The notes under the pieces are model-generated. The model saw only the letters and a list, made by a program, of their open reading frames with translations, was not told the DNA's origin and did not search any database. Both the position numbers and the translations under genes were made by a program. A DNA stretch of 64,000 nt from Pseudomonas viridiflava (GTDB lineage: Bacteria; Pseudomonadota; Gammaproteobacteria; Pseudomonadales; Pseudomonadaceae). The stretch covers positions 1-64,000 of the forward strand of contig NZ_UTHA01000016.1 in assembly GCF_900582195.1 (NCBI RefSeq), given 5' to 3'. How positions within the stretch are numbered: the stretch's first letter is position 1; the number at the start of each line of letters is the position of its first letter. Shown in pieces: positions 33,293-41,254 of this stretch.

Positions 33293-34042
33293 ATGACGAT
33301 TTCCAAGGATTCGTCAGCCGTGCAGCGAGGCAATTCCACGGACGGTTTTCAGCGTTCAACGAGGCTTGTGCGCCGGATGTGTCTGGGGTGGCTGCTTGGC
33401 TGCGCGGCGGGCCACGCCATGGCCGATGCGGTGCCGGCGGACATGCGCATGACGCTACACATTCCAGCACAGGATCTGGCCCGCGCGCTGGATCAGTACA
33501 GCCACGCCACGGGCGTCGCGGTGCTGGTCGACAGCCAGTTGAGTCGCGGCCGTCGCTCGCTCGCGGTGAACGGTGAATACACCGCCGCCGATGCCCTGCG
33601 TCGATTGCTCGGCGGCAGTGGTTTGATGGCGCGCTATGCCCGCGACGATGCGTTTACGTTGCAAGTGGCGCAGGTCGAAGACGTACCGGCGCCGCCACAA
33701 AAACAGACGCCGGAAAGTGTCGCTGTCAACCGCAGTTACGCCACGGCGGTGCAAGCGGCGATCGAGCGCAACCTGTGCCGCTCGCCGCTGACCCGGCCGG
33801 GCAGTTATCGCGCGGTGTTGCAGGTCTGGGTTGGCCGCGACGGCGTGGTGCAGCACAACCGGTTGGTCACTTCGACCGGAGATGTACGGCGCGACAACGC
33901 GCTGGTGGAAAGCTTTCGCAATCTCAGGATCGACCGGCCGACGCCCAGCGCCTTGCGTCAGCCGGTCACGTTGCTGTTGTTACCGGAGTCGTCAGGGAAA
34001 CGCATGGAATGCACCAAATGGGAAGGAGTTTCCGGGGGATGA
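33293..34042 (+). CDS. vreA: VreA-like PUMA3 signalling protein (STN plus TonB-like C-terminal domain)
   Basis: Up to 249 residues. After a signal peptide ending near GHAMA comes an STN domain (MTLHIPAQDLARALDQYSHA, VNGEYTAADALRRLLGGSGL). About residues 145-235 resemble a TonB C-terminal domain (RAVLQVWVGRDGVVQHNRLV). There is no beta-barrel receptor. This unusual architecture, followed by an ECF sigma and a FecR gene and then hxc genes, matches P. aeruginosa VreA of the PUMA3 system. The first 25-28 residues before VRRMCLGWLLG look non-signal-like; translation may start at GTG 33368 or ATG 33377 instead. The last bases overlap vreI (ATGA). Confidence 0.85.
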   Translation: MTISKDSSAVQRGNSTDGFQRSTRLVRRMCLGWLLGCAAGHAMADAVPADMRMTLHIPAQDLARALDQYSHATGVAVLVDSQLSRGRRSLAVNGEYTAADALRRLLGGSGLMARYARDDAFTLQVAQVEDVPAPPQKQTPESVAVNRSYATAVQAAIERNLCRSPLTRPGSYRAVLQVWVGRDGVVQHNRLVTSTGDVRRDNALVESFRNLRIDRPTPSALRQPVTLLLLPESSGKRMECTKWEGVSGG

Positions 34043-34590
34043 AAGACACCGGACAAGGTTCGATGGTCCAACTGTTCCTGACGTCCTACGAGGACTTTCG
34101 GGTGCGCCTGCGCCGGCGTCTCGGTTCGGAAGATCTGGCCAACGACGTGCTGCACGAAACCTACCTGCGCGTCGACCGCATGGAGACGCCGCCGAACGTT
34201 CTGCGGCCCAACGCCTACCTCTATCGCATGGCCCTGAACATCGCCGCCGACCGCCGTCAGGCTGATGCGCGCCTGCTCACTGGCGAGGAAGTCGAAGAGC
34301 TGCTGCAAATTGGCGACGAAGCCCTGGACCCGGCGCGGGTGGTCGGTGGGCAAAAGGAAATCCAGTCACTGCTCAGTGCGTTGTACGAGCTGCCCGCACG
34401 GCGCCGGAAGATCTTCATCGCGGCGCGTCTGGAAGAGGCGCCGCACCTGGAAATTTCTCAGCGTTTCGGCATTTCCACGCGCATGGTCGAGAAGGAAATC
34501 AAAGCCGCATTGGGCTTCTGCGCTGCGAAACTGGAAAGAAAAGTGTTTCAGCGGTTCGGTCGCGGGGCCGGAAAACCGTCTTCTGAATAG
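34039..34590 (+). CDS. vreI: VreI-like ECF sigma factor
   Basis: A 183-residue FecI-class sigma factor. Region 2 runs through RLRRRLGSEDLANDVLHETY and PNAYLYRMALNIAADRRQAD. Region 4 is PARRRKIFIAARLEEAPHLE followed by the helix-turn-helix ISQRFGISTRMVEKEIKAAL. The ATG overlaps the vreA stop by ATGA, so the genes are translationally coupled. By analogy with PUMA3 it should direct transcription of hxc, pdtA and neighbouring genes in response to phosphate limitation plus a surface signal; this regulation is inference from P. aeruginosa. Confidence 0.92.
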   Translation: MKDTGQGSMVQLFLTSYEDFRVRLRRRLGSEDLANDVLHETYLRVDRMETPPNVLRPNAYLYRMALNIAADRRQADARLLTGEEVEELLQIGDEALDPARVVGGQKEIQSLLSALYELPARRRKIFIAARLEEAPHLEISQRFGISTRMVEKEIKAALGFCAAKLERKVFQRFGRGAGKPSSE

Positions 34591-34621
34591 TGCCCGATCA
34601 ATTCGTTGAGAATCTGCGCGT

Positions 34622-35560
34622 TTGAACATCTTTCGACTGACACCTGCCGAGCCATCGGCGGCCGACCCTCTGCACAGCGAAGCCCGCGACTGGCTGGTCC
34701 TGCTGACCTCCGGCCGCGCCACCGTGGCCGACGCCCGCGCCCTGCGCGAATGGTGCGCGCAGAGTGCCGAGCATGCCCGCGCGTTCGAAGAGGCCAAGCG
34801 GTTGTGGCAGCAGCTGCAACCGGCCGTGGAGCAAATGCAGGCGCCACGCGGGTTTGGTAGACGTGCTTTTCTCGGTGGTGCGATTGCTGCGTCGGCGGCG
34901 TTTTTGCTGGTACGTGGGACGATTCCTGGTGGTTTTGAAGGGCTGGGCGCGGACTACATCACTGAGGTTGGCCAGCAGCGTCGTTTCGAACCTGTGCAGG
35001 GTGTGAGCCTGGAGCTGAATACTCAGACGCGGATCAATCAGCGCTCAATCGATAACGGTGTGCAAGGCTTTGAACTGGTCAGCGGCGAAGTCGAAGTGCA
35101 GACCGCGCGGTTGCCGCTGGCGATGCAGGCTGGGGGAGGGTGGTTGCGCGCGAGTCAGGGGCGTTTCAATTTGCGTAATACCGATCAGCAAGTCTGCGTG
35201 ACCTGCCTCGACGGCGCCGTTGAAGTCGACGTCGAAGGTCGCAGCCTGCGCCTCGAACCGGGGCAGCAGGTGACCTATGATGCGCGGCAAGTCGGCAGTG
35301 TGCAGAGTGTCGACACAGCCGCCGTGATGAACTGGCGCCAACAAGTGCTGGTGTTCAACGGTGCTACGCTGAGCCAGATGATCGATGAGATCAATCGGTA
35401 TCGGCCGGGGATGTTGCTGTTGCTTAATCGTGAGCTTGGGCAGCGACGGGTGCAGGCGCGCTTCAGCCTTGATCAACTTGCTGGCGTTGCATTGCTGATT
35501 CGGGATGCCTATGGCGTCAAGTGCACCGAGTTGCCGGGCGGTGTCGTTGTTTTGAGCTAG
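34622..35560 (+). CDS. vreR: VreR-like FecR-family anti-sigma regulator
   Basis: A 312-residue single-pass inner-membrane protein. Residues 15-70 are the cytoplasmic sigma-binding domain (ARDWLVLLTSGRATVADARA, RALREWCAQSAEHARAF). A helix at about 82-98 (FLGGAIAASAAFLLV) precedes the periplasmic FecR domain (VSLELNTQTRINQRSIDNGV, CLDGAVEVDVEGRSLRLEPG) and a C-terminal STN-like part. The start is TTG at 34622: an in-frame stop lies five codons upstream and no ATG or GTG is available near it. It follows vreI by 31 bases, and STN-containing VreA would be its periplasmic partner. Confidence 0.9.
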   Translation: MNIFRLTPAEPSAADPLHSEARDWLVLLTSGRATVADARALREWCAQSAEHARAFEEAKRLWQQLQPAVEQMQAPRGFGRRAFLGGAIAASAAFLLVRGTIPGGFEGLGADYITEVGQQRRFEPVQGVSLELNTQTRINQRSIDNGVQGFELVSGEVEVQTARLPLAMQAGGGWLRASQGRFNLRNTDQQVCVTCLDGAVEVDVEGRSLRLEPGQQVTYDARQVGSVQSVDTAAVMNWRQQVLVFNGATLSQMIDEINRYRPGMLLLLNRELGQRRVQARFSLDQLAGVALLIRDAYGVKCTELPGGVVVLS

Positions 35561-36175
35561 TGGGTTTGACTGGGTACATATCCGTTGCTGCGGTAACGGC
35601 CGCTTAGGGTTCCGCCCTGACGGCGGGTCACCTTTTCCAAACGCCGAAAAGGTAACCCAATGGCTTGCTCCTACGTACGGCCCGCTCGCTAAAGCTTGGG
35701 GTTCCTTCGCTCCGGGATCCATCCGGGCGCATCGCCTACGGCTTGCTTCGCTGCACCTCCTCTCGATGCATTTGGCTGCGCCAAACGGTCGCTGCGCTCC
35801 CACCCCCGGATGAATCCCTCCACTCAGCCTTCCGACGTCGCCCGTGGATCAAGATCAAGAGCTGCAGCCGAGCTTGCGCTCATCCGGTTGAGTGGGGCGG
35901 CTTTGCCCCTTGGGTTGTACGCACATTAAAACGGTGGGAGCGAGCCTGCTCGCGAAGACGGCCTGCCAGCCAACCAACCCCCAACTGACCTCACCCAATC
36001 CCACTGTGCCCAGCCTTGCTGACGATAGTCGTCCACCAGGCATTAATTGAGCTAACTGACACCTCGCCATCGCTAGCAGGCTCAATACCCCGATTTTTTC
36101 ATACGCAATAACTATGTACCGCACCTGACTTCCGCTTGATCGACACGCTGTGCCCTACAGACAAGGAGTGACTGT
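35561..36175. repeat. Repeat-filled intergenic region before the pyocin module
   Basis: No gene. 35600-35880 is a long GC-rich dispersed-repeat-like block (GGCGGGTCACCTTTTCCAAA ... CCGGATGAATCCCTCCACTC) with several internal palindromes. 35934-35960 is a single REP unit. 35968-36007 is the left copy of a 40-bp direct repeat found again at 41138. The last 150 bases are AT-richer and carry the pyocin promoter region and the Shine-Dalgarno AAGGAG at 36163-36168. Confidence 0.65.
35968..36007 (+). repeat. Left copy of 40-bp direct repeat flanking the pyocin module
   Basis: AGCCAACCAACCCCCAACTG followed by ACC-T-CACCCAATCCCA-C-TGT. It matches 41138-41177 at 38 of 40 positions, in the same orientation. 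The interval between the copies contains exactly the pyocin, its immunity genes and the fusion protein gene. Confidence 0.75.
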
Positions 36176-38740
36176 ATGGCACAAAACACGTTCAACGATG
36201 GATCGTCAGGTAGCGTCGTCATCAGATCCGGGCCACCTGCTTCGGGGGGTGGGTCGGGTAGCGGCATTGGTGGTGGCGGCGGTGTTTCCGGCGGGTTCGG
36301 TGGCACCAGCAAGAAAAAGCAGAAAGCTCGAAAACGCGCGTTGGCGGCTCATCGTCAGGCCCAGGCAAATCAGCAGGCCGAGGCGCTTGCCAGAGCACAG
36401 GCCGAAGCCGCGCAAGCACAGGCAGCTGCAGCGCAGGCTCAAGAGCAGGCGCGGCATCAGGCGCAGGTGCAATTCCTGGCAGGCTTGGCGCAGCGTCATG
36501 ACGCGATCAGAGCCGAAGCCGATCGACGTTTCGCGCAAAAAACCGAACAACTCGGCTCAGCGCTGGAACAGGAAATTCTTGCCGCGAGAAGACCACCTCA
36601 AGCCACCCAGACTGAGCGCTGGCAGCTCTACACCATCACCAAGGAAAAAAGCGAAACAGACGGACTGCTCGCTCGCAAATCCGCAGAGCTCAACGCAAAA
36701 AATGCACTGGCCCGGTCCTTCGATGGCCACGATCCGCCGACCCGCACCTCCAATGATTACCTGACGCGACTGGGCCAGTTCGGCCAAGCGCTCAATGACG
36801 GTCATCAGATCTGGGAGAACGCCTACAACGCGGCTCATGAAGCGCGTTTATTAGACACGCAAATCAATGCCCTACGCGATAGATCAGCGGCGCTGGCCCG
36901 CCATCACGCAGAGCAAACGGTGGTCTGGCGCGAAAGGGAAGCCAGTTGGGCAGCCCAGCGCAAGTTCGTTGAACAGCGTGAAGCTCGAGTCCGGTTCAAG
37001 CAGCAGGTGGATGAAGATGCCCGCGCAACCCGGCTCAAGCAGGTCAACACACTCAGTGTCCCGCTGGCGGCGGGTGCGACGTTTTTGACGCAAGCCGGTT
37101 CATTGGTGGCCGAAGGAGCGGCCAAGCTTATTGAAACCGCTGTGCAAAAAGCGGTCAGTCAGCTTTCCCTTTCGTTGCTTGTACCTCAACCATCGACGGT
37201 CTTGATCTTCGCTGCTGTGTACTCGCCAACACTGGGCAATGGTGAACTGACGCCAGAGCAGAGACGGCGATTGTTCCAGTCTGTCGCCGTTCCCGTTCAG
37301 ACACTGGGCCTTTCTGATGAACAAACGCTTCGATCGATCGCCGATTCCGGCGGTTCGGTCGAGATGCCCTGCCGCCTCAAAACCGAGCGGGTAGCCGACG
37401 GCACCGCAGTAATTGTGGTCGCCACAGGCAATGAGATCGGCGCCCAAGTGCCGGTCATCAAAGCGGTATTTGATCCTGAGACTGGGAGCTACACCGCACA
37501 AGTGGCCGGTGCTCCGACCAGGCATTTGCAGTTCACGGCGGACACGCCCGTTACGCAAACCGCCTCAAGCCAAGCCCGTGTTGCAGTATTCCCGCCGCTG
37601 ACGCAGAACCTGCCAACGGGCGCAGATCTGCGCATTCAGGATTGCATTGTCTGTCTGCCCGGTTCGGCACCGTTGTACCTGTCCTTCAGCCCGCCACCCA
37701 TGGGGTCGGGCATTGTCACCGGTACTGGCCAGGCCGCCTCCGCCGATTGGTGGAAGCATTCGAATGGCGCGACAGGCGCCGCCATACCCAGCCAGATGGG
37801 TGATCAACTTCGCGGTCGGGAAATCACTTCCTTCCGTGCTTTTGACGAAGCATTGTGGCGAACCCTTGGCGAGCAACCGGCACTCACCGAGCAGTTCGAT
37901 GAGGTCAACAAAAAACGCGTCGAAAAAGGCTTCGCGCCTTACGCCCCGAAAAGCACTTGGGTTGGAGAGCGGCGTGAATTCGAACTGCGTTTTCAGGAGA
38001 GCGTAGAGGCGGGTGCCAACCCGTTCAACCTCGACAGGATCAGCATCGCCTCACCACAAAGCGCCAACGGTCGCCGCGGTGTATTGCCAAGCATTCAGCC
38101 TTGGCCAGTGCCTCCCGTCGGAATCGGCACCTGGACGCCACTTGTCCCTCCGGGAACGGAGCAGCTTGGATCTACGACCACACCGATTATTCCGTCGACG
38201 CCCGTGGTTTATCCCGGCCAGCCTGTCATCCCGATCCTACCGGCAAACGAGACGTTTCCGGCTGTCGATAAAGGGCAGGTTGGTGCGAGTATTCCCGGGT
38301 TCCCGGCGGATATGGAATTGCCTGCGCCGGATCTGTTGTTTCTGGATCGGCGGGATGATCCGGGGGTGGCGACGGGAGTCGGGCAGGACGTGATGGGGAT
38401 CTGGTTGGGGGAGGCGGCGCGTACGAGCGGAGCGCCGATCCCGACACAGATTGCAGATCAACTGAGGGGCAAGGAATTCGCCAATTTTCAACGGTTCAGG
38501 GAGGCGTTTTGGAGGGCTGTGGCTACAGATCACAACCTAAGGAAGCAGTTCAGCAACGTTAACTTGAAAGAAATGACAAAAGGATCTGCACCCTACTCGA
38601 TCCCATTTGATCAAGTTGGGGGTAGGAAAAAATTCGAAATTCATCATCAGCATGAAGTCGCGAATGGCGGCGCTGTTTACGATATGGGAAATTTACTGAT
38701 TATGACTGCGAAGCGGCATATCGAAAAGCATAAGGGATAA
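36176..38740 (+). CDS. S-type pyocin, HNH DNase bacteriocin with an extra degenerate DNase-like domain
   Basis: An 854-residue bacteriocin, no signal peptide. Residues 1-45 are Gly/Ser-rich (GGGSGSGIGGGGGVSGGFGG). 45-300 form a charged coiled coil. About 330-505 are the Pyocin_S translocation domain ending CIVCLPGSAPLYLSFS. 510-630 resemble the DNase fold (QLRGREITSFRAFDEALW) but lack its catalytic histidines. A Pro-rich linker (640-725) leads to the active-looking DNase at 728-854 (QLRGKEFANFQRFREAFW). Its HNH motif has H823, H824, H848 and H852 in KFEIHHQHEVANGGAVYDMG ... KRHIEKH. One change from the colicin E9 type is VYDMGN for VYDMDN. It degrades target-cell DNA. The immunity gene starts two bases after the stop. 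Shine-Dalgarno AAGGAG is present. Confidence 0.93.
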   Translation: MAQNTFNDGSSGSVVIRSGPPASGGGSGSGIGGGGGVSGGFGGTSKKKQKARKRALAAHRQAQANQQAEALARAQAEAAQAQAAAAQAQEQARHQAQVQFLAGLAQRHDAIRAEADRRFAQKTEQLGSALEQEILAARRPPQATQTERWQLYTITKEKSETDGLLARKSAELNAKNALARSFDGHDPPTRTSNDYLTRLGQFGQALNDGHQIWENAYNAAHEARLLDTQINALRDRSAALARHHAEQTVVWREREASWAAQRKFVEQREARVRFKQQVDEDARATRLKQVNTLSVPLAAGATFLTQAGSLVAEGAAKLIETAVQKAVSQLSLSLLVPQPSTVLIFAAVYSPTLGNGELTPEQRRRLFQSVAVPVQTLGLSDEQTLRSIADSGGSVEMPCRLKTERVADGTAVIVVATGNEIGAQVPVIKAVFDPETGSYTAQVAGAPTRHLQFTADTPVTQTASSQARVAVFPPLTQNLPTGADLRIQDCIVCLPGSAPLYLSFSPPPMGSGIVTGTGQAASADWWKHSNGATGAAIPSQMGDQLRGREITSFRAFDEALWRTLGEQPALTEQFDEVNKKRVEKGFAPYAPKSTWVGERREFELRFQESVEAGANPFNLDRISIASPQSANGRRGVLPSIQPWPVPPVGIGTWTPLVPPGTEQLGSTTTPIIPSTPVVYPGQPVIPILPANETFPAVDKGQVGASIPGFPADMELPAPDLLFLDRRDDPGVATGVGQDVMGIWLGEAARTSGAPIPTQIADQLRGKEFANFQRFREAFWRAVATDHNLRKQFSNVNLKEMTKGSAPYSIPFDQVGGRKKFEIHHQHEVANGGAVYDMGNLLIMTAKRHIEKHKG

Positions 38741-38744
38741 ATCA

Positions 38745-39023
38745 ATGATTCTCTTCAAGAATAGGCTTCAAGACTATACGGAAGCCGAGTTTTTACTATT
38801 TATTCGTGAGTTTTTCGATTACTCAAACCCTCTGGAAGGCGACGCATTGGGCCAATACACCGACAAACTGGTGGAGCACTTCGAGAAAATTACCGAACAC
38901 CCCGATCGCTCTGGCGTAATTTTCTATCCCAAGGAGGGACAAGAGGATAGCCCGGAGGGAGTTTTGAAAGAAGTTAAAGAATGGCGTGCACGTAATAACA
39001 AGCCAGGTTTCAAGACGGAGTAG
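38745..39023 (+). CDS. Colicin/pyocin DNase immunity protein (Im9-like), cognate
   Basis: A 92-residue acidic four-helix protein of the Colicin_Pyocin immunity family. It opens with LQDYTEAEFLLFIREFF. The DNase-contact helix reads TEHPDRSGVIFYP; the family usually has SD(L/V)I(Y/F)YP, so a Gly replaces the Asp here. It ends SPEGVLKEVKEWRARNNKPG. Its AAGGG ribosome site lies inside the end of the pyocin gene, which guarantees coupled expression. It binds and blocks the C-terminal DNase domain in the producer. Confidence 0.93.
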   Translation: MILFKNRLQDYTEAEFLLFIREFFDYSNPLEGDALGQYTDKLVEHFEKITEHPDRSGVIFYPKEGQEDSPEGVLKEVKEWRARNNKPGFKTE

Positions 39024-39107: not shown

Positions 39108-39230
39108 ACGAGACGTTTCCGGCTGTCGATGAAGGGCAGGTCGGTGCGAGTATTCCCGGGTTCCCGGGGGATATGGAATTGCCTTCGCCGGAAATGTTGT
39201 TTCTGGATCGGCGTAGCGACGCCATATCCG
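39108..39230 (+). pseudogene. Remnant of a second S-type pyocin gene
   Basis: The stretch encodes ETFPAVDEGQVGASIPGFPG then DMELPSPEMLFLDRR, nearly identical to the linker of the intact pyocin (bases about 38248-38352). It has no upstream start and no downstream DNase domain; the frame runs on into the next immunity gene and stops. It is the scar of a duplicated pyocin whose toxic domain was deleted while its immunity gene was kept. Confidence 0.8.
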
Positions 39231-39254
39231 CGTGCATAAAAAAGGTAATCAACG

Positions 39255-39530
39255 ATGAAAGACAAATCGAATCTTGAGGACTACACAGAAGCTGAATTTC
39301 TCGCTTTTCTTCGAGAGCTTTTTGAAGGGAGAGATAATTTGGCACCCGATGATTTTGAAAAATGCACGCTAAAGCTTGTTGAACACTTTGAACTGGTAAC
39401 CGAACACCCAAATGGTTCAGACGTCATTTTTTACCCAGAGGCAGGTCGGGAAGACAGTCCTGAGGGGATTCTGGAAGAGGTCAAAGAGTGGAGGGCACGT
39501 AATAAGAAACCGGGCTTCAAAACTGAGTAA
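39255..39530 (+). CDS. Second (orphan) DNase immunity protein
   Basis: A 91-residue Im9-like protein, clearly related to the first immunity protein but distinct. It has LEDYTEAEFLAFLRELFEGR, the full contact motif TEHPNGSDVIFYPEAG, and SPEGILEEVKEWRARNKKPG. It sits directly behind a pyocin scar, so its cognate toxin has been lost. It may protect against relatives that still make that pyocin. AAAAAAGG lies upstream as a weak ribosome site. Confidence 0.92.
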   Translation: MKDKSNLEDYTEAEFLAFLRELFEGRDNLAPDDFEKCTLKLVEHFELVTEHPNGSDVIFYPEAGREDSPEGILEEVKEWRARNKKPGFKTE

Positions 39531-39607: not shown

Positions 39608-41128
39608 ATGCAATTGAAACCAACCCTCAACGACTACACCGAACCTGAGTTCCAGGCCTTGGTGGATAGAATCTGGGCTGTCGATTTACCAAAGGCCGAT
39701 CATGATCGGTTGATCAATCATTTTGACCAGATAGCAGGTCATCCGAAGGGCGCCGATTTGCTGTTCTACCACCCTGATGAAGACCCTAATCCAAACTCAG
39801 CGGGCTCTGTCGTCTACTACGTCAAGGACTGGCACCGTCAACAGGGTCGCGTGGCATTCAAAGGACAGGCCTCGCTTGCTGCGCCTGCACCACCGGCCAT
39901 ACCAGCACCGATGAATTGGGCGCAAATAACCCAACAGCGCATTGCCCAGCAATTGCTTGATAGTCAAAAAACCAGTGCCGATCTGGCTACCTCACAGCGA
40001 GCAGCAGAAGCGGCACTCACTGTTCTCGAACAAAGAATTGGCGACCTTCGCAGACATTCGAATGCTCAAATATCTGCTTCGGAGCTTGAAAAGGATTTAC
40101 GCAGTGTAGAAATCGCCGAGTTCGATGCCCGTTTAGCTGTTCACGGTTACAAGTTGTGGAAAATGCGCGTTCAGTTCAAGAGAGACAATGCGCTACGTGA
40201 GGTGAATTACGCGCAAGCCGAGCGGGGGCAGTGGCAAAGCATTGCTCAGCAATTTGGCGCTACCTACGACCGGTATGTGGCGAGCCTGAATGCCATTAAC
40301 CAGCAACTCAAGCGGCTTCAAGAGGAGGCCGAGACACTGTTGACTACAGCCCAGACTCAACTTGTAGAGCTGCGCGATCGACAGGACGCAGGACCGACCC
40401 GGGCGCCTGTGCAGCTGTTTGCTCCGCTTGCTTGCGTCAATGCACGCCCGGCTGTATTGATCGATGGCGAACTGTCGCGCACTTTGGAGTCCTATCGCGT
40501 GGATCTGCAAAAATCCATTCGCTCGGCCGTCGCGGAGTTCACGTGGCAAATCACCTCCAGCGTGCAGAAGGACCAAGTTCAATATGCCGCGGTATTGCGT
40601 TTCGAGTTTCGCAGTCGCGCGGAGGTGGGTCGTTACGGAGTTTGCGTACCCTTGTCCGAGTTTCTGGTGGTCGAAGGGCTGGATTGGCAATACCTTGCCG
40701 CGACGAAGGCGAACATCGATGTCCCTTTCAGAATGAGCAGCGGCAGCTATGCCGTGCCGAGCGGCACTCTGTTTCAAGGCATCAGGGAAATCAAAAGCCT
40801 GCACCAAGTGGCAATAACGCCAGTCAGCGCCACAGAACTGGAACCTGGTGTCAGAGTGCGTCCCGCAACGTGGAACGAGTCCTCGCAAAACTACAGTTTC
40901 ACGGCTGATGGCAACGCCCCGTTCACGGTCATCTGGCGTCTTCCAGAAACAATGGAGACTTCCTCTCCACTGACGTCCATTGCCGATTATCGAATGAGCA
41001 GTCTCCAGTCGCCGCACACACCTTTGATAGAGTCATTTCCTGGAGCGGCCAACGTTACTTTTGATGACTATGTTGTGGTATTTCCAGATTCAGATTTGGA
41101 GCCTGTGTATGTGATGTTCGAGGGTTAA
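39608..41128 (+). CDS. Chimeric protein: immunity-like domain, coiled coil and Pyocin_S translocation domain without a killing domain
   Basis: A 506-residue protein with AAGGAAG before the ATG. Residues 1-88 resemble DNase immunity proteins: LNDYTEPEFQALVDRIW, the contact helix AGHPKGADLLFYHP and VVYYVKDWHRQQGRVAFKG. A Pro/Ala linker (90-102) and a charged coiled coil (105-270) follow. Residues 275-506 resemble the Pyocin_S domain (GVCVPLSEFLVVEGL, VRVRPATWNESSQNYSFTAD), and the protein ends exactly at that domain's last motif, FDDYVVVFPDSDLEPVYVMF. No nuclease, pore or other toxic domain is present. It may be a decoy or extracellular immunity carrier, a receptor blocker, or a relic of recombination with intact frame. 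Function unknown. Confidence 0.85.
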   Translation: MQLKPTLNDYTEPEFQALVDRIWAVDLPKADHDRLINHFDQIAGHPKGADLLFYHPDEDPNPNSAGSVVYYVKDWHRQQGRVAFKGQASLAAPAPPAIPAPMNWAQITQQRIAQQLLDSQKTSADLATSQRAAEAALTVLEQRIGDLRRHSNAQISASELEKDLRSVEIAEFDARLAVHGYKLWKMRVQFKRDNALREVNYAQAERGQWQSIAQQFGATYDRYVASLNAINQQLKRLQEEAETLLTTAQTQLVELRDRQDAGPTRAPVQLFAPLACVNARPAVLIDGELSRTLESYRVDLQKSIRSAVAEFTWQITSSVQKDQVQYAAVLRFEFRSRAEVGRYGVCVPLSEFLVVEGLDWQYLAATKANIDVPFRMSSGSYAVPSGTLFQGIREIKSLHQVAITPVSATELEPGVRVRPATWNESSQNYSFTADGNAPFTVIWRLPETMETSSPLTSIADYRMSSLQSPHTPLIESFPGAANVTFDDYVVVFPDSDLEPVYVMFEG

Positions 41129-41137
41129 GTAAGCGGG

Positions 41138-41177
41138 AGCCAACCAACCCCCAACTGACCGCACCCAATCCCAATGT
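41138..41177 (+). repeat. Right copy of 40-bp direct repeat flanking the pyocin module
   Basis: Same orientation as 35968-36007, differing at two of 40 positions. It starts ten bases after the stop codon of the chimeric gene and overlaps the start of a REP pair. Confidence 0.75.
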
Positions 41178-41254
41178 AGGAGCTGCCGAAGGCTGCGATC
41201 TTTTGATCTTGAAAACCAAAGTCAAAAGATCGCAGCCTCCGGCAGCTCCTACAC
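41175..41254. repeat. REP inverted pair (GTAGGAGCTGCCGAAGGCTGCGATC family)
   Basis: Inverted arms at about 41175-41205 and 41222-41253, separated by 16 nt. Located between the convergent chimeric pyocin gene and hxcW; probably acts as a shared transcript end. Confidence 0.85.

Follow-up and report, generated by a model that had tools for sequence, protein, structure and literature searches.

A pyocin-like protein with a fused immunity domain, and its neighbour, in Pseudomonas viridiflava: a putative two-component bacteriocin

Genes and domains at the locus

A stretch of 64,000 nucleotides from Pseudomonas viridiflava (assembly GCF_900582195.1, contig NZ_UTHA01000016.1, positions 1-64,000 of the forward strand; below, the window) carries two neighbouring genes of the pyocin type, whose products are here called A and B (Table 1). 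A is a DNase pyocin with two stretches matching the Col-Pyo_DNase family, a complete one at its C-terminus and an inner one at residues 516-640. B joins an immunity (Im) domain to a long helical hairpin and a translocation domain of the Pyocin_S family, and carries no toxin. Considered together, the two probably constitute one two-component bacteriocin, joined by a repurposed toxin-immunity pair.

The reading frame of B starts with ATG and runs uninterrupted for 506 codons, with AAGGAAG seen by eye 5' of the start. An earlier note on this DNA had described just such an intact frame with a ribosome site, and had read the product as an Im-like domain (residues 1-88) with its contact helix kept, followed by a coiled coil and a Pyocin_S domain from residue 275, ending exactly at the last motif of that domain without any killing domain. 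Most of this is borne out. Pfam places Colicin_Pyocin (PF01320) at residues 4-85 and Pyocin_S (PF06958) at residues 361-503 (E-values in Table 1), and no toxin domain is detected in B by Pfam at E <= 1. Structure prediction recovers both folds: in the AlphaFold2 model (mean predicted local distance difference test score, pLDDT, 84.6) the N-terminal domain resembles Im7 (1ayi; Z 14.0, root-mean-square deviation 1.9 A over 84 residues, 36% identity) and Im9 (1emv; Z 13.4, 1.7 A over 82 residues), the helix III motif of Im proteins is present, and residues 263-506 resemble the translocation domain of colicin E9 (chain residues 97-290 of 7nsu_D; Z 12.5, 3.6 A over 175 residues). The coiled coil and Pyocin_S domain stand, as long helices and as a Pfam match respectively, with two corrections: the translocation domain begins at about residue 263 in the structure match, as against 275 in the note and the Pfam boundary of 361, and the chain terminates four residues beyond the quoted motif.

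B thus has the Pyocin_S translocation domain of an S-type pyocin and lacks the C-terminal toxin. It opens with the Im domain, its first five 10-residue blocks having pLDDT values of 84-91, and has no N-terminal receptor-binding or TonB arm. Nor is it a free Im protein of about 90 residues, being 506 residues long with the Im domain fused in 38/38 aligned homologues. Asp486 and Tyr501 correspond to Asp270 and Tyr285 of colicin E9, provided that the structure alignment is ungapped near its end; since Asp is found at 486 in 35/38 homologues and Tyr at 501 in 37/38, the DPY region of B appears, on alignment, to read as canonical.

Table 1. Positions in the window of proteins A and B, their domains and the features between them
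Feature	Position	Strand	Evidence
Protein B, 506 aa: Im domain - helical hairpin - translocation (Pyocin_S) domain, without toxin	39608..41128	+	Open reading frame (ORF), Pfam, AlphaFold2 model
B residues 1-88, Im-type immunity domain, proposed plug	39608..39871	+	PF01320 2.8e-15; Z 14.0 Im7, 13.4 Im9; dN/dS 0.04-0.09
B Lys29, at the place of the ordinary Im helix II acid	39692..39694	+	Lys/Arg in 35/40 B; Glu/Asp in 24/26 free Im
B residues 104-258, long helical hairpin	39917..40381	+	Model helices 104-151, 157-182, 184-201, 206-258
B residues 263-506, colicin/pyocin translocation domain including Pyocin_S	40394..41125	+	Z 12.5 to colicin E9 97-290; PF06958 4.4e-18
Protein A, DNase pyocin, 854 aa, proposed partner	36176..38740	+	ORF, Pfam
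A residues 385-502, short diverged Pyocin_S domain	37328..37681	+	59.6 bits vs 150.5 for one ordinary pyocin
A residues 516-640, HNH-less DNase domain, proposed socket	37721..38095	+	AP41 DNase 5.4e-21, colicin E9 DNase homology
A Asp557, at the place of colicin E9 Arg54	37844..37846	+	Asp/Glu in 29/35 dead domains; Arg in 20/20 complete DNases
A residues 573-601 (E9 70-98), immunity-binding exosite of the dead DNase	37892..37978	+	Entropy 0.37 vs 1.25 bits
A residues 721-854, complete HNH DNase toxin, swapped for another domain elsewhere	38336..38737	+	PF21431 at 730-853, protein E-value 4.2e-80
Im1, free immunity protein, presumed cognate to the A DNase	38745..39023	+	PF01320 1.9e-34
106-nt copy (94%) of toxin-junction sequence 38247-38352	39108..39213	+	94% copy of 38247-38352
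Im2, second free immunity protein, no own toxin seen at the locus	39255..39530	+	PF01320 1.4e-32

Conservation and distribution of protein B

When 398 genomes of this genus, counting that of the window, were surveyed, 42 matched B (cut at E <= 1e-20). Two of these, G159 with an Im piece only and G128 with a Pyocin_S piece only, were excluded, leaving the fusion in 40 genomes, in 39 of them essentially full length, with identities ranging from 96 down to 30%. Internal stops occur in two of the 40 genes (G208 and G215) and the other 38 have none; in G112 (locus L057) the C-terminal end is altered. Both Pfam domains are found in 38/38 of the homologues scanned, three of which also have a Col-Pyo_DNase match at the C-terminus. 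The alignment of B proteins (A1) excludes L048 and L070, which have internal stops, and that of A proteins (A2) excludes L040, L048 and L064, whose A frames are cut or shifted.

Against six relatives, the ratio of nonsynonymous to synonymous substitution rates (dN/dS) of the window's B is 0.13-0.24, and its three segments taken separately give values of 0.40 or less; the Im domain is the most constrained part, at 0.04-0.09 against the four relatives with finite dS. Whole-gene comparison of eight further locus pairs gave 0.15-0.41 for B. Debris or a chance fusion, against which the earlier note had already argued, is ruled out by the occurrence of the fusion in 40 of the 398 genomes together with the low dN/dS.

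Among 390 genomes sampled from the order, no B was found outside the genus: three matched, all from the same genus, and in one of them, G188, the match is confined to positions 146-516 and the protein resembles an ordinary pyocin rather than a fusion. Scanning named genomes for the pattern yielded 50 loci, 49 labelled Pseudomonas and one Pantoea sp. Ap-967, and by our own count 41 of the 50 cover the whole query in a single stretch. No plasmid-borne B was seen, 0 of 269 matching plasmid records reaching 80% coverage, and the top plasmid match is an ordinary pyocin with its Im gene.

The inner DNase domain of protein A

The inner domain of A is of the DNase family by its match to the pyocin AP41 DNase (5.4e-21), and it has lost most of the HNH and metal-binding residues. 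Positions are given here in colicin E9 numbering, taken from sequence alignments, with position 54 confirmed by entry 2vlp (title R54A); we take E9 residues 96-131 to have catalytic roles. In an alignment that is loose beyond position 118, His102, Asn118, His127 and His131 are lost in 35/35 inner domains and His103 in 26/35, while all five are kept in 20/20 complete DNases of these loci. The inner domain is therefore referred to as the dead domain. In the AlphaFold model of A it mirrors the secondary structure of the complete DNase except for the last helix, though this is a low-confidence stretch of a poor model; Foldseek with the same model gave DNases only among the matches listed, which adds little.

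A search for the dead domain in the 398 genomes gave some match in 148, mostly weaker and of ordinary-DNase strength. Orthologues were counted at 118.8 bits or above, the next match being at 94.1, a cut chosen on seeing the gap. They occur in 37 genomes, namely G367 and 36 of the 40 B-bearing genomes, counting G112, where the dead domain is only partial. With 36 genomes having both, 4 having B alone, 1 the dead domain alone and 357 neither, the Fisher p is 1.6e-45, a value that overstates the evidence because the genomes are not independent; the spread over 30-96% identity does not overstate it. In G367 two stops interrupt the dead-domain frame and B is not found intact, there being Im-like pieces elsewhere and a Pyocin_S-like piece that overlaps the same place. 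In the four genomes with B only, A has an internal deletion in G245 and G155, is truncated in G311 and is largely deleted in G215, where B is broken too. Forty-one loci were examined, 40 fetched plus the window: A has the dead domain in 35 and lacks it in L057, L061, L062, L067, L070 and L072. In 35/35 loci having both, the two genes share a strand, with A upstream and a gap of 268-2091 bp.

The Pyocin_S domain of A is short and low-scoring, with B itself reaching only 66.6 bits, yet the A domain is a strongly conserved variant, and the idea that a degenerate domain in A has been replaced by that of B is unsupported as such. Asp-Cys-Ile and a second Cys are present in 32/32 (37328-37681 and homologues), where B has mostly Asp-Tyr-Ile/Val. 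As Pyocin_S comparators, the motif frame was found by script in 6 of 12 loci, to which L126 was added.

The predicted binding surface

According to extracts of PMC4548480, the immunity exosite of DNases is normally hypervariable and built on Nxxx(phi)xxGxAP, the residue after this motif touches aromatic residues of Im helix III, and a salt bridge between an Im helix II Glu and a DNase Arg occurs in every DNase-Im structure. The motif is retained in the dead domains, with Asn75, Gly82 and Pro85 in 35/35 and Ala at residue 84 in 27/35. Across the 19 loci with both domains, the dead domain averages 0.37 bits of entropy at positions 70-98 and the complete one 1.25, while outside the exosite the two are alike (dead/complete 0.83/0.85 and 0.78/0.82). 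The dN/dS of A residues 573-606, about the exosite, is 0-0.06 against six relatives, with one case of infinite dS. On the side of B, the fused Im domains hardly vary in helix II, which is variable in the free Im proteins of the same loci.

The bridge Arg of PMC4548480 can be identified, from the alignments, as E9 Arg54. At this position the 35 dead domains have Asp (20), Glu (9), Gly (4), His (1) or Asn (1). The acid of Im helix II is in turn absent from nearly all the fused domains, which have Lys in 32 of 40, Arg in 3, Gln in 4 and Glu in 1; in the free Im proteins it is Glu/Asp in 24/26, the other two being Ser and Gly. A swapped bridge, basic in B and acidic in A, is found in 27/35 loci. 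As a rough control, read by eye, the degenerate DNases located at or after the C-terminus of some B proteins have Lys (L055), Lys (L056), Arg (L058) and Thr (L067) at position 54; these are not acidic, so loss of catalysis alone does not turn the site acidic. The expected partner of B would then be the dead domain of A, not the complete DNase named in the earlier note.

The distances of the dead domain and of the fused Im domain are correlated over 35 loci (partial r 0.57 given four other A/B domains, permutation p 0.0002), with the four other cross-protein partials between -0.15 and 0.19 (the highest being A N-terminus with B hairpin, p 0.009). These correlations lend weak support to co-evolution of the two domains beyond linkage.

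Exchange of the toxin end of A

In 17 of the 35 loci (L033, L034, L035, L048, L052, L054, L056, L058, L059, L060, L063, L064, L065, L066, L068, L069 and L071) A ends in a domain other than an HNH DNase, and the dead domain and B remain. These alternative ends contain a stretch around DIDHI or DVDHI, most with GGRN, and lie in the A frame in 16 loci and in another frame in L064 (found by tblastn). The alternative domain has no Pfam match in the members scanned and is presumably a toxin. L033 has such an end on A although its B is 96% identical to that of the window. The window itself bears traces of such an exchange, in the 106-nt junction copy and Im2. Immunity to the DNase of A is accordingly disfavoured as the role of B, which is kept in these 17 loci.

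A proposed two-component bacteriocin

The case for one bacteriocin made of A and B is drawn from sequence, in the form of architecture, gene order, co-occurrence, loss of catalytic residues, a frozen exosite, a charge swap and purifying selection; from these we infer binding, co-release and a step assisted by B. The N-terminal Im domain of B would bind the catalytically dead DNase in the middle of A, the two being by descent an ordinary toxin-immunity pair that would now serve as a fixed plug and socket. A would supply an N-terminal arm rich in glycine, a coiled coil, a Pyocin_S domain of its own and, at the C-terminus, a toxin open to exchange; B would add a further hairpin and another translocation domain, the more canonical of the two. 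Because it has no N-terminal arm of its own, B would have to ride into the target on A. In extracts of PMC9040868, import of pyocin G needs an inner-membrane translocation domain, with FtsH and TonB1 also required, and both the N-terminal arm and the translocation domain are needed; B, being armless, should therefore not enter cells alone. Once in the target, B would most likely assist the passage of the toxin over the inner membrane. The dead domain, without HNH residues, should need no immunity, and the producer would be protected by the small Im genes between A and B rather than by B.

Several observations weigh against this proposal. His103 is retained in 9/35 inner domains, and "dead" is a call made from residues in an alignment; the model of A is poor overall (mean pLDDT 57.6). 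A already has its own conserved Pyocin_S domain, with several residues in 32/32. B is open in three genomes (L061, L062, L067) in which little or nothing of the dead domain is left in A. At exosite residue 86, 24/35 dead domains have Tyr and 11 have Ile, Val or Leu, and the charge swap is absent in 8/35 loci, which pair Lys/Arg with Gly, His or Asn (5) or Gln with Glu or Gly (3). Within a clade of 25 members the partial correlation of dead domain and fused Im falls to 0.23 (p 0.027), next to controls of 0.30 for fused Im with A N-terminus (p 0.009) and 0.18 for the two Pyocin_S domains (p 0.026).

The docking evidence would serve equally well if the role of B on the dead DNase were limited to the producer, as a chaperone or as a factor for solubility or release, without entry into the target, and the Im proteins of ordinary nuclease bacteriocins do leave with the toxin and are shed on entry, according to extracts of PMC5536347. 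Such a role seems unlikely, in that it would not need the complete translocation domain of B, which is under purifying selection and canonical in its motif region.

The earlier note had proposed that B carries immunity, titrates incoming pyocins or blocks a receptor, and a resistance or decoy protein of this sort, its Im domain neutralising or capturing the DNase pyocins of rivals inside or outside the cell, would fit the retention of the Im fold and of most of the helix III hotspot, as well as the ordinary free Im genes at the locus, one of them without its own toxin in view. It is nevertheless improbable. Helix II is nearly fixed rather than diversified and has Lys/Arg in 35/40 where Im proteins have their Arg-binding acid; B is kept in 17/35 loci with no HNH DNase at the end of A; it occurs about one to one with the HNH-less domain inside the adjacent pyocin, being without a neighbouring dead domain in only 4/40 genomes, all with a damaged A; and the fused translocation domain is given no clear reason.

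Least probable of all is that B is the remnant of a second, toxin-bearing pyocin that once travelled with A, lost its toxin and is now a passenger drifting to loss: three of 38 B proteins do keep a C-terminal Col-Pyo_DNase match, a degenerate one that breaks off ahead of the last metal-binding histidines, L067 has a DNase-like frame after B and L057 an altered C-terminal end, but the toxin-less form is the common one, the three segments of B stay at or below a dN/dS of 0.40 against six relatives and 38/40 frames have no internal stop. The degenerate DNase that ends B, or then follows it, in L055, L056, L058 and L067 is distinct from the dead domain of A, and perhaps represents the ancestral state of B.

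Surroundings of the locus

The copy of the toxin-junction sequence and Im2 (39108-39530) are the probable remains of an earlier toxin-immunity cassette. The A-Im-Im-B locus is flanked by a 40-nt direct repeat (95%; 35968-36007 and 41138-41177), a possible insertion boundary, whose 30-base core has two occurrences in the whole genome, both at these places; similar copies (38 and 36 of 40) are present in L033. Directly 3' of B lies an inverted repeat (41175-41253) with 37-nt arms that are 92% complementary, either a terminator or an intergenic repeat element. Upstream of A, 33293-35560 appears by eye to encode an STN/TonB-type protein, an extracytoplasmic sigma factor and a FecR-like regulator, and this DNA is also found beside A in L033. 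No match to the SOS box CTGT-N8-ACAG is present in the window, and promoter and terminator scans gave nothing exceeding shuffles.

Relation to known systems and significance

The DNase and Im protein of colicin E9 and pyocin AP41 have the same two folds and exosite loop as the dead domain of A and B. The inner DNase of A differs in lacking the HNH residues and in lying mid-protein, its proposed Im partner is fused to a translocation domain, the salt bridge is charge-swapped and the surface is frozen rather than diversifying. Residues 263-506 of B look, by description, like the same kind of domain as the translocation domain of pyocin G in the extracts of PMC9040868, here placed on a protein without receptor arm or toxin. 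The orphan toxin/immunity cassettes of polymorphic toxins likewise recall the remnant toxin junction and Im2 between A and B, whereas B itself is a lasting element of the locus and not a cassette relic.

As recounted by Sharp et al. (2017, PMC5536347), Ghequire and De Mot (2014) described ten isolates with Pyocin_S domains in tandem ahead of a DNase; Sharp et al. also note an additional DNase without a functional HNH motif. These tandem-Pyocin_S nuclease bacteriocins are probably A itself, so that the extra HNH-less DNase was already known in 2017, while the extracts of that account name neither an Im-fused second protein nor a docking role, and no mention of the partner B was found. In extracts of PMC9598984 both Pfam families are named only in a table of ordinary pyocins. 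No Im-Pyocin_S fusion is named in the titles or abstract openings among the PMC matches listed, for which underscored terms were matched bluntly as 'pyocins'. B is not ordinary, and the reading of it moves from stray immunity towards that of a coupler within a two-component bacteriocin.

Bacteriocins of the colicin type are known as single polypeptides with a detachable Im protein. We lean slightly toward seeing in A and B a binary class of bacteriocin, its toxin-immunity pair converted into a lasting and orthogonal coupler, with catalysis lost, the Im domain fused to a second delivery module, interface charges reversed so that there would be no cross-reaction with working DNases or Im proteins, and toxins interchangeable. 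A docking role would explain the extra HNH-less DNase of the earlier survey, left unexplained in the extracts of PMC5536347. If true, a pair of ultra-high affinity would have been exapted as structural glue to give a two-subunit delivery machine, offering a testable case of how interaction specificity is first rewired and later frozen, together with a binding pair of natural origin that is perhaps orthogonal.
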